In this document: piece by piece, positions 574 through 10,654 of the stretch
Layout: every line of letters begins with the position of its first letter
Numbering within the stretch: the first letter of the stretch is position 1
DNA from: Fidelibacterota bacterium
GTDB taxonomy: Bacteria; Fidelibacterota; Marinisomatia; SCGC-AAA003-L08; TS1B11
Direction: 5' to 3'
NCBI GenBank assembly: GCA_004124875.1
Contig: SCKJ01000007.1
Coordinates: forward strand, 1-64,000
Length of the DNA stretch: 64,000 nucleotides
Notes under the pieces: model-generated
Told to the model about the DNA's origin: nothing
Database searches by the model: none
What the model saw: the letters and a program-made list of their open reading frames with translations, nothing else
Translations under genes and position numbers: made by a program

Positions 574-3500
574 CTACTTCAGCAGCACCATCTTGATGGA
601 ATTAGTGTACTCAAGCGTTACCAGTCGGGCGATGTAGATACCTGATGGGACTCTCTTTCCACTTGCGTTCCTGCCATTCCACTGAATCTGATGGTAACCC
701 GGCTCCATGTGGCTGTCCACCAGACTAGCTACCTCGCGAGCCAGGAGGTCATAGACGATCAGAGAGACATCGCTGGCATGGGGTAGCTCATATCGAATGG
801 TAGACACTGAGTTAAAGGGGTTGGGATAGTTCTGAAAAATATTAAATATCTTGGCTATTTTGGGACTATCTCGAACATCCAGGGCTAAAAGCTGGTCATA
901 ATGGTAAAAGATGTTTGTAGAGCCACCGGTCTCGGCTACAAAATGAAGGACACCGGAATCTAGCGCATACGCTTCGATGCCCTCCATCTCAGGACCCGGT
1001 GGAACGATGATAACCGGTGTAGCCGTTCCAGTTGCAATGTCCACCTCATATACATAATCCCCATTGTCACAAGCGAGGTAGAGAAAATCTCCTAGAAAAG
1101 CGCCACCCTGAACACGAGAGAGTGTGGTATCAAGTTGAACCTCATCTATGAGAGCAAAGTTTTGGTTTGGGTCATAGACGAATAATTTATTGACACCATC
1201 AAATTCTGATGAGTAGAAAAAGCCGGTTCGAGGGTCCACCGCAACCCAGGGGATATGAGATTGAGGCACCAGCGCATAGTCTCCAGTGAAGATTAAGCTG
1301 GCTGTGTCAAATAGGGCAATGATCGGCTTGACATAGGAGCTATCCTCAATAGGTGCATAAAGTTTGCCCTCAAAATAGGCAATATCGCCGATATGATCGT
1401 AGCCTTGATCCTGAAGGAATTGCGGGATTGGATTTTGAGAACCATCTTTTTCAATAAACATGTCAAAATTCGCATCGGTTTTAAAAAGTCCTCCCTTGGA
1501 GGAGAAATACCAAAATACCCCATCGGTAGCCACCCCTTGCGAAAAACGCCCATCGACCTGATCTTTACTTTTTTCAAGCCAGCCGTCGGCAAAGACTAAG
1601 GGCAGAACTAACTGGATTGAAAAACTGTCGCTCCAGAAGTCAAAGACCTCGCTGGCAATGGATATGTCGAATAGGATGTCGTGATCACCTGCGCAATTCT
1701 CATTGACGTCTACTATATAATCGCCAGCTGTGGTGACGGTCGCCCCGGGGCCAATGTCTCCATAACTGTTTTGACCTTCCACCCTAATTTCAGTTATGCA
1801 CGTATCGAGTGTAGATATGTCTGCGGTGATTGCTGTTGCAGTAGCCGTTGGGCCGTTGTTCCTGAGCGAAAGTTTTAAGAACGGACTGTCCCCGGGGTTT
1901 GGTAAAGTGTTGAACAGCGTGTAAGATTCTAATACCACCGGGCCGATAGTTGTAAATGTGCCCACGTTATTGAGCTCGAAGCTGACCGTGTGTGAATCGA
2001 CGTAACTGACATGAAGATCGACAAAGTAAATTCGCTCGTCGACAGGCGGGACCGCCCAGGCATTCCCGAAGCGGCTGTCACCTGCTTCACCGTCGTGGTG
2101 AGCGCCGTCATCAAAGAGGGGCAAAGTATCGAGCGGAGCCTGGTCGGGCGCCTCTATCTCGGCGAAGAGACTAAGGTTCGCCGGCCCCGCCACCGTAGCT
2201 CTCACCACCACCGAATCCATGCCGGACACAGCATACGCCGGAGAGACGGAGACTCCCTCCACGTCTACAGGAGAAGTGTATCCATAATACAGATATGCCG
2301 AACCTGAAAAATTTCCATTATCATCATCCGCCCCAGCTCCCACGACAGCGTAGTCGCCGGAGATGGAAACTGAACTTCCAAACTCATCACCTGCCGCTCC
2401 ATCAGAAGAAAGTATTTTTACCTTCTGTGCCCAGCTTGTGCCGGAGCGTTTGAACAGATAAGCCGAACCTGAAAGATTTCCATTATCATCATCCGCCCAT
2501 GCTCCCACGATGGCGTAGTCGCCGGAGATGGAGACTGATCCTCCAAAAAAATCAAATACTGCTCCATCGGAAGGGAGTAGCTTCGCCTCCTGCGCCCAGC
2601 TGGTGCCGGAACGTTTGAACAGATAAGCCGAACCTGAACAACCTCCATTGTCGCTATCGCATGTTGCTCCCACGACGGCGTAGTCGCCGGAGATGGAGAC
2701 TGAACTTCCAAACTCATCACCTGCCGCTCCATCGAAAGGAAGTAGTTTCGCCTCCTGCGCCCAGCTGGTGCCGGAGCGTTTGAACAGATAAGCCGAACCT
2801 GAAAGATTTCCATTATCATCATCCGCCCAAGCTCCCACGACGGCGTAGTCGCCGGAGATGGAAACTGAACTTCCAAACTCATCACCTGCTGCTCCATCGG
2901 AAGGAAGTAATTTTGCCTCCTCTGCCCAGCTTGTGCCGGAGCGTTTGAACAGATAAGCCGAACCTGAAAGATTTCCATTATCATCATCCGCACAAGCTCC
3001 CACGATGGCGTAGTCGCCGGAGATGGAGACTGAACTTCCAAAAAAATCAAATGCTGCACCATCGGAAGGAAGTAATTTTGCCTCCTCCACCCAGCTTGTG
3101 CCGGAGCGTTTGAACAGATAAGCCGAACCTGAACAACCTCCATTATCACTATTGCATGTAGCCCCCACGATGGCATAGTCGCCGAAGATGGAGACTGACT
3201 TTCCGAAACCATCACCTGCCGCTCCATCAGAGGCATGTAACTTTGCTTCCTGCGTCCAGCTCGTGCCGTTGCGTTTGAACACGTAAGCCGAACCTGAACC
3301 ATCGCCATTATCATCATCCCCATGGGTTCCCACGACGGCGTAGTCGCCGGATATGGAAACTGAACTTCCAAACTCATCAAAGTCTGCTCCATCAGCCGCC
3401 TTTATTTTGAATTCATCGAATTGTGCGTAAACCGGCTGGGAAATAGCCAATAAAGCCGTCGCACAAATCGTCAGGGTTGGTGGTAGTATCTTCTTAGGGA

Positions 3501-3603
3501 TAATATTCTCCCATTGTTTCTGCAGTGGCGGTGCTTGAGCTCGGTAATGAAAGCAGAGCGTCTGGAGTGATGGGGCATCGTGGTAAGGCCGTGTTAATGC
3601 CAA
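574..3603 (-). CDS. Secreted FG-GAP-repeat protein with T9SS/FlgD-like C-terminal domain
   Basis: This is a large predicted secreted protein (about 1009 aa). Residues 30-60 hold a basic stretch (IIPKK), a hydrophobic segment and an A-Q cleavage-like end, so a signal peptide is likely. The sequence before it looks non-coding, and the true start may be a non-ATG codon near 3513. Residues 69-451 are seven near-identical 55-aa repeats (FGSSVSISGDYAVVGA, DDDNGN, GTSW) of the FG-GAP/beta-propeller type, with Ca-binding-like DDDNG loops. The middle contains CARDB-like and propeller-like segments. The last 90 residues (YPNPFN, GRNASGKRVPSGIY, KMVLLK) form a FlgD-like T9SS sorting domain. It is probably exported and surface-bound; the ligand is unknown. 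Confidence 0.85.
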   Translation of the reverse strand: MALTRPYHDAPSLQTLCFHYRAQAPPLQKQWENIIPKKILPPTLTICATALLAISQPVYAQFDEFKIKAADGADFDEFGSSVSISGDYAVVGTHGDDDNGDGSGSAYVFKRNGTSWTQEAKLHASDGAAGDGFGKSVSIFGDYAIVGATCNSDNGGCSGSAYLFKRSGTSWVEEAKLLPSDGAAFDFFGSSVSISGDYAIVGACADDDNGNLSGSAYLFKRSGTSWAEEAKLLPSDGAAGDEFGSSVSISGDYAVVGAWADDDNGNLSGSAYLFKRSGTSWAQEAKLLPFDGAAGDEFGSSVSISGDYAVVGATCDSDNGGCSGSAYLFKRSGTSWAQEAKLLPSDGAVFDFFGGSVSISGDYAIVGAWADDDNGNLSGSAYLFKRSGTSWAQKVKILSSDGAAGDEFGSSVSISGDYAVVGAGADDDNGNFSGSAYLYYGYTSPVDVEGVSVSPAYAVSGMDSVVVRATVAGPANLSLFAEIEAPDQAPLDTLPLFDDGAHHDGEAGDSRFGNAWAVPPVDERIYFVDLHVSYVDSHTVSFELNNVGTFTTIGPVVLESYTLFNTLPNPGDSPFLKLSLRNNGPTATATAITADISTLDTCITEIRVEGQNSYGDIGPGATVTTAGDYIVDVNENCAGDHDILFDISIASEVFDFWSDSFSIQLVLPLVFADGWLEKSKDQVDGRFSQGVATDGVFWYFSSKGGLFKTDANFDMFIEKDGSQNPIPQFLQDQGYDHIGDIAYFEGKLYAPIEDSSYVKPIIALFDTASLIFTGDYALVPQSHIPWVAVDPRTGFFYSSEFDGVNKLFVYDPNQNFALIDEVQLDTTLSRVQGGAFLGDFLYLACDNGDYVYEVDIATGTATPVIIVPPGPEMEGIEAYALDSGVLHFVAETGGSTNIFYHYDQLLALDVRDSPKIAKIFNIFQNYPNPFNSVSTIRYELPHASDVSLIVYDLLAREVASLVDSHMEPGYHQIQWNGRNASGKRVPSGIYIARLVTLEYTNSIKMVLLK

Positions 3604-10220: not shown

Positions 10221-10583
10221 CTAAAAAGTAATCACTCGATCCACATCCACTGTTAATTGCGCTACTTCTTTCGGAGTAATCCACCTCGAATTTAACCACT
10301 CCAGGTCTTCATCCAAGACCCCCCGGGCCTTGCCGCACGCGCCTCAGGTGTAAATAGGTACATTGTTGTCCAATGCGCTCTGAATCAAATCTTTAAGTGG
10401 GGGAATACCCACAGGAATGACACTATCGGATACCACCTTCCTCGCCAACACGCTCGCATCGCCTGCAAGTATCACCTCCGGGTCGTGTCCCGCCTCTATT
10501 GAACCTTTAGCCAGCAAAAATGCCAAACCTGCTCGCGTGGGATCCTCCGAGCCGTGAGTTGATATTATCAAGATTCGCGCCAT
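10221..10583 (-). CDS. DsrE-like sulfur-relay family protein, candidate selenoprotein (in-frame TGA)
   Basis: Full-length reading gives 120 residues. The first 79 (MARILIISTHGSEDPTRAG ... NNVPIYT) match DsrE/YchN-like proteins. The next codon, 10344-10346, is TGA. The frame then continues without a stop for 40 codons (GACGKARGV, WITPKEVAQLTVDVDRVITF) to TAG at 10221-10223. The family normally has a C-x-x-C-containing CGAC.KARG motif here, so TGA falls on the first Cys. Thirty bases after TGA, the transcript can form a hairpin with perfect 6-bp stem GGUCUU/AAGACC and loop GGAUG. This fits the bacterial SECIS pattern (G at the loop start, suitable distance). The alternative is a fresh nonsense mutation. 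An AGGGGGTG Shine-Dalgarno precedes ATG 10583. No Sec machinery lies in the window. Confidence 0.75.
10296..10320 (-). promoter_or_regulatory. SECIS-like stem-loop downstream of the DsrE TGA
   Basis: On the transcribed strand the order is 23 nt after UGA, then GGUCUU, loop GGAUG, AAGACC. One more G-U pair can extend the stem. Such a hairpin inside the coding region immediately after UGA is how bacteria recode selenocysteine. Confidence 0.5.
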
Positions 10584-10654
10584 GTCAAAACACCCCCTGT
10601 CTTTGATTGATCTTCCATCAAATTACCTTATTTTATTAATTTGTTACCCCCGCC

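Follow-up and report, generated by a model that had tools for sequence, protein, structure and literature searches.

The question raised by this locus is whether a DsrE-like gene with an in-frame TGA, at the place of the first cysteine of a CxxC motif, is broken or is read through with selenocysteine (Sec). Our findings indicate that it very probably encodes a single-domain selenoprotein of the DsrE family, judging from its own sequence and those of its relatives.

Reading frame and family membership

Within the 64,000-nucleotide stretch analysed here (the window), a sequence-only reading had described an open frame of 79 codons, TGA, and 40 more codons to TAG, with no strand stated. Such a frame is present on the minus strand, from 10583 to 10221 (table 1): the reverse complement of 10221-10583 starts with ATG and runs through 79 sense codons, TGA as codon 80, 40 further sense codons and TAG. 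Read with Sec at TGA, the protein is MARILIISTHGSEDPTRAG...NNVPIYT-U-GAC-GKARGVLDEDLEW...DRVITF. Its motif is U80-G-A-C83, with TGA standing for the first Cys of CxxC as had also been proposed, and Cys forms occur at this position in homologues. The Pfam DsrE domain (PF02635) spans residues 3-120, across the TGA, with an E-value of 3.4e-14 and 53.4 bits against a cut-off of 22.7. At the place of the AGGGGG that lies upstream of the ATG, a close relative (genome G192) carries AGGAGGTG.

Table 1. Features of the DsrE-like locus, in window coordinates
Feature	Position	Strand	Observation
DsrE-like selenoprotein gene (predicted)	10221..10583	-	120 residues, Sec at position 80, stop TAG; one TGA, otherwise open
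UGA (Sec) codon 80, first position of the putative U-G-A-C redox motif	10344..10346	-	Same column TGA in 34 distinct homologous sequences, others Cys or Ser
Cys83 codon, putative resolving cysteine of UxxC	10335..10337	-	Cys in 34/34 distinct Sec sequences; Ser in 11/11 Ser forms
Shine-Dalgarno-like AGGGGG, upstream of ATG	10593..10598	-	Sequence inspection
Conserved candidate bacterial SECIS hairpin CAAGGCCC-GGG-GGGUCUUG	10314..10332	-	8 bp, 3-nt loop, loop 19 nt after UGA
Hairpin of the sequence-only reading, GGUCUU-GGAUG-AAGACC	10304..10320	-	Overlaps and excludes the conserved hairpin; not conserved

DsrE-like selenoproteins are known in bacteria, as the sequence-only reading had correctly stated. 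UxxC members were described in 2005 from Sargasso Sea data (PMC1088965), another from Desulfovibrio vulgaris in 2006 (PMC1794560), and two, DsrE 1 and DsrE 2, in the GOS survey of 2008 (PMC2398784); a 2026 review treats the DsrE-like selenoprotein as predicted with high confidence and functionally uncharacterised (PMC13188914). The family reference is the D. vulgaris sequence WP_014524487.1. The window gene shares with this family the Pfam domain PF02635, the U-x-x-C motif and the predicted bacterial SECIS mechanism and comes from another lineage. Two neighbouring identities were considered and rejected. The TusD/DsrE subunit model TIGR03012 reaches only 12.2 bits against a cut-off of 89.25 and partner genes are missing, leaving a relationship only. 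YedF/FdhU, whose DsrE-like domain (TIGR03527) contains CGxC and has been linked to selenium metabolism (PMC5322559), carries an N-terminal SirA-like domain, whereas the window protein has a single DsrE domain and lacks a TIGR03527 match.

The gene stands alone between a DUF309 gene and a short-chain dehydrogenase, with no TusBCD/DsrEFH partner subunits beside it. No neighbourhood is conserved across the relatives' loci L021-L028, and with G192 it has only the DUF309 gene in common; gene context therefore points to no single pathway. Elsewhere in the window (574-3603, minus), the list of open reading frames, our only source here, shows a long protein whose FG-GAP-like repeats (FDxFGSSVSISGDYAVVGA...) are numerous and near-identical and whose C terminus has a FlgD-like motif.

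Decoding of TGA in the host and in relatives

The sequence-only reading had noted that selA, selB, selC and selD are all missing from the window and had suggested a search of the remaining genome. All four are present elsewhere in the host assembly (3.02 Mb, 17 contigs, 94% complete), so that their absence from the window is immaterial. SelA (496 bits) and SelB (316 bits), both over their cut-offs, are encoded by adjoining genes; tRNA-Sec has the anticodon TCA (UCA in the tRNA); and selD (369 bits; L010, G000:C12:165488-166420, minus) has one in-frame TGA, in SGSGUACK, which we take to be the known Sec/Cys site equivalent to E. coli Cys17. A strong 9-bp hairpin follows the selD TGA, its loop 13 nt after UGA and thus closer than the usual rule. 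SelD is a second selenoprotein of the host genome; Sec decoding is present there and is used at least once more.

Alignment of homologues, another check that had been suggested, revealed TGA at the same site in several phyla and Cys elsewhere. In a scan of genome contigs, eight relatives with 43-80% protein identity all carry TGA at the same codon, in metagenome-assembled genomes (MAGs) labelled Deltaproteobacteria (Myxococcota), Betaproteobacteria, Armatimonadetes, Acidobacteria and Chloroflexi. This TGA is shared across at least five phyla, and its family-wide conservation far exceeds chance. In the extended set of distinct homologues, the codon-80 column is Sec in 34 sequences, Cys in 41 and Ser in 11. 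The Cys forms are nearly all CxxC. The Ser form reads SGMS, having lost both redox residues together, and forms one separate clade with support of 100/100 (L032, L089, L090, L093, L094, L098, L099, L103, L107, L116 and L117); this clade would represent a form devoid of thiol or selenol chemistry at the UxxC site. In the tree, the window gene falls in a clade of 24 rows, in our sample all Sec and with no Cys form inside it, whose base has modest support (94/73); the eight rows nearest to it are well supported (100/94). Two Sec rows (L063 and L067, with UIPC and UVPC) look like another subgroup and group with Cys forms. A further paralogue, of the CGPC type (L064, genome G463, minus strand), has TGA at a different conserved Cys, reading HGULQHVF where its relatives read GCLQHVF or GCLEHVF, possibly a second Sec site or a sequencing error.

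Within the window's own phylum, a close TGA copy is found in 3 of 245 genomes, the window's included; one of the other two is 95% identical and from the same family, and the second carries a frameshift. One genome of the same genus is without this gene. The nearest genes to the window's are those of other phyla. In genome G070 (L031/L039), the motif of the TGA copy is U-T-A-C, and a frameshift falls between residues 53 and 56, either decay or an assembly error.

The TGA form is also associated with SelA. Across 61 genomes, SelA occurs in 32 of 33 with a TGA-bearing match versus 18 of the 28 whose match is a Cys or Ser form, the TGA column having been read directly in genomes giving loci and otherwise counted as one TGA inside the match. 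The association has the expected direction (Fisher p 0.0016), with a significance inflated by shared ancestry. A first set of TGA genomes had given SelA in 9 of 10, plus the window's own. The TGA genomes G249 and G690 lack a full SelA match, and their assemblies may be incomplete.

Downstream of the TGA, relaxed selection, which the sequence-only reading had held would count against recoding, is not seen. Between the window gene and its 95%-identical relative, the region after the TGA shows 5 synonymous changes over 28 sites and 1 non-synonymous over 92 (dN/dS 0.055), compared with a dN/dS of 0.26 before it, and is under purifying selection. R87, D115 and other residues are invariant in all 11 rows of a homologue alignment (A1).

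That the TGA is a nonsense mutation in a decaying gene gains something from the frameshifted G070 copy, given that single copies can evidently decay, but it has a negligible probability and was rejected: the identical codon across phyla at 43-80% identity, co-occurrence with SelA, purifying selection downstream and synonymous constraint after the TGA (see below) all argue against it and, along with the host's Sec machinery, uphold the earlier claim of recoding. Equally negligible is reassignment of TGA to another amino acid, or its near-cognate suppression, for which we found no support: TGA ends 16 of the 45 long open frames in the window and is thus a normal stop codon there, which led us to reject a changed code; neither selA nor selB contains an internal TGA, and the single one in selD is the Sec codon that is expected there; and the codon-80 residue alternates with Cys in homologues.

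The hairpin downstream of the TGA

Bacterial SECIS elements have been modelled as a stem of 4-16 bp with a loop of 3-9 nt located 16-37 nt after UGA, G in the first two loop positions and an energy of at most -7.5 kcal/mol (PMC13188914). Two overlapping hairpins of the window gene, which exclude each other, come into question. The one described in the sequence-only reading, with a 6-bp stem GGUCUU/AAGACC and a GGAUG loop, is present and lies within the published spacing and loop rule; the conserved SECIS is, rather, the overlapping hairpin just upstream, CAAGGCCC-GGG-GGGUCUUG. The latter folds alone at -11.7 kcal/mol and, with a GGG loop of 3 nt, a stem of 8 bp and a spacing of 19 nt, agrees with the model. 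As in the E. coli fdhF-type element, the hairpin lies just after UGA and has G in the first two loop positions, following the rule in PMC13188914; it differs in its 3-nt loop, GGG here and GUG in most relatives, and in the near-invariance of its core stem, GCCC/GGGU, across phyla.

Conservation of this hairpin was assessed in an alignment of 32 relatives that leaves out L063 and L067, members of another subgroup whose stem fits poorly. With the T of TGA as position 0, the stem 14-21/25-32 keeps 86.3% of pair cells, against 79.6% in shuffled alignments (none of 500 as high), and its covariation score is 0.218 against 0.135 (1 of 500 as high), with a clear maximum at slide 0. Alignment columns 18 and 30 are G-C in 24 sequences and C-G in 7. 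Double-sided changes amount to 3 pairs, with 3.4 in shuffles, and thus show no excess; support for the hairpin therefore comes from its percentage of paired cells, from its covariation score and from synonymous codons that are frozen. These codons are striking: Ala86 is GCC in 32/32 Sec genes and Gly88 is GGG in 31/31, and each of the 31 that encode Ala-Arg-Gly has GCCCG(T/G)GGG (in RNA, GCCCG(U/G)GGG). In Cys and Ser genes, by comparison, every one of the four Ala codons occurs at the same site and Gly is mostly encoded by codons other than GGG, and synonymous identity in the same Sec genes averages 0.36 outside the SECIS stretch. Taken alone, the pairing would make a moderate case for the conserved hairpin; the codon evidence makes a strong one.

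It is very unlikely that GGUCUU-GGAUG-AAGACC is instead the working SECIS, or that the two hairpins form a switch. Its loop does lie at an acceptable 29 nt after UGA, and it is the minimum-energy choice in a 46-nt fold (7 bp in the fold, -9.0 kcal/mol). Yet it keeps only 55.7% of pair cells in the 32 relatives, equal to shuffles, and slid registers score as well or better, whereas the overlapping hairpin keeps its 86.3% and scores highest when unshifted; as the SECIS it was accordingly rejected as unconserved. When the published rules were applied to all TGA triplets in the window, 1.6% matched the stability of the conserved hairpin or bettered it, and 3.6% did so for GGUCUU-GGAUG-AAGACC, so that a hairpin by itself is insufficient evidence.

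Fold, possible role and significance

The fold is predicted to be DsrE/TusD/YchN-like. An AlphaFold model of the protein (pLDDT 96) retrieved YchN (1jx7) as its best Foldseek match (E 6e-8), followed by DsrE, TusD and other DsrE-family structures (with YchN, PDB 1jx7, 2hy5, 3mc3 and 2d1p). YchN, although the closest in structure, has no Sec, and its function is unsettled. A single-sequence search of solved structures gave no match, and a profile search gave the DsrE-like structure 3mc3, with residue 80 aligned with or beside a Cys; residue 80 also has a weak alignment to the part of the TusD model that surrounds its Cys. In DsrE, Cys78 carries a persulfide that is passed to DsrC (PMC3397948). 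In Allochromatium vinosum DsrE (from DsrEFH) and E. coli TusD (from TusBCD), which share the same fold, the place of Cys78 is aligned to or adjacent to Sec80. Sec80 would thus sit at or next to the persulfide-carrying position, and from these alignments and the DsrE persulfide we infer that Sec80 accepts the sulfur or makes the attack, with Cys83 as the resolving residue. Differences from these systems are plain: DsrEFH and TusBCD are heterohexamers with two partner subunits, and the window has a lone gene; its protein has Sec for Cys, plus a second Cys three residues on.

From these elements a course of events can be proposed. On reaching UGA at codon 80, the ribosome would meet the CAAGGCCC-GGG-GGGUCUUG hairpin just 3' of it, which would recruit SelB with Sec-tRNA(Sec), so that Sec would be inserted rather than translation stopped, giving a 120-residue protein with U-G-A-C. 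Sec80 may then attack, as a selenolate, a sulfane-sulfur or disulfide substrate, and the resulting Se-S bond would be resolved by Cys83 or handed to an acceptor. A sulfane-sulfur or disulfide relay via Sec80 and Cys83 seems the likeliest role. We regard a physiological function in sulfur transfer or persulfide handling as about evenly poised, the remainder falling mostly to a general thiol redox role.

The principal rival accepts the selenoprotein but has Sec serve general thiol-disulfide or peroxide redox chemistry, through a Sec80-Cys83 selenenylsulfide, or metal or metalloid binding, and not sulfane sulfur. It is a serious contender, if somewhat short of an even chance: UxxC is a classic redox motif, Cys83 is retained in all 34 distinct Sec sequences, and the fully Ser form lost both residues together. 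The closest folds, on the other hand, are of the sulfurtransferase type (DsrE, TusD and YchN), and in one relative, from an Armatimonadetes MAG (L025:2350-5611), the Sec-DsrE gene adjoins two genes that, by eye only, look like those of a flavoprotein resembling CoA-disulfide reductase and of an MBL-fold/rhodanese protein resembling persulfide dioxygenase, neighbours whose appearance suggests sulfane-sulfur metabolism. A more ambitious proposal, of a laterally spread Sec-dependent DsrE subfamily in five or more phyla, with a near-fixed SECIS core (GCCCGUGGGG) and a selenopersulfide (Se-S) relay in place of the Cys persulfide, can be offered only tentatively and is on balance doubtful. We know of no DsrE protein for which selenopersulfide sulfur-transfer chemistry has been shown.

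The window gene belongs to the already listed DsrE-like UxxC selenoproteins, and what is added is a sharper definition of the SECIS and a broad distribution across phyla. Selenoprotein genes are routinely shortened or overlooked by annotation, which would take this one for a pseudogene or for a fragment of 79 residues. The literature searched describes no biochemistry for the family. Sec, Cys and Ser forms side by side, with one frozen SECIS core, allow tests of the advantage that Sec gives at the sulfur-carrier site of DsrE and of the minimum sequence with which a bacterial SECIS can work across phyla. With few copies in its own phylum and its closest kin in other phyla, the gene also bears on the lateral transfer of selenoproteins.
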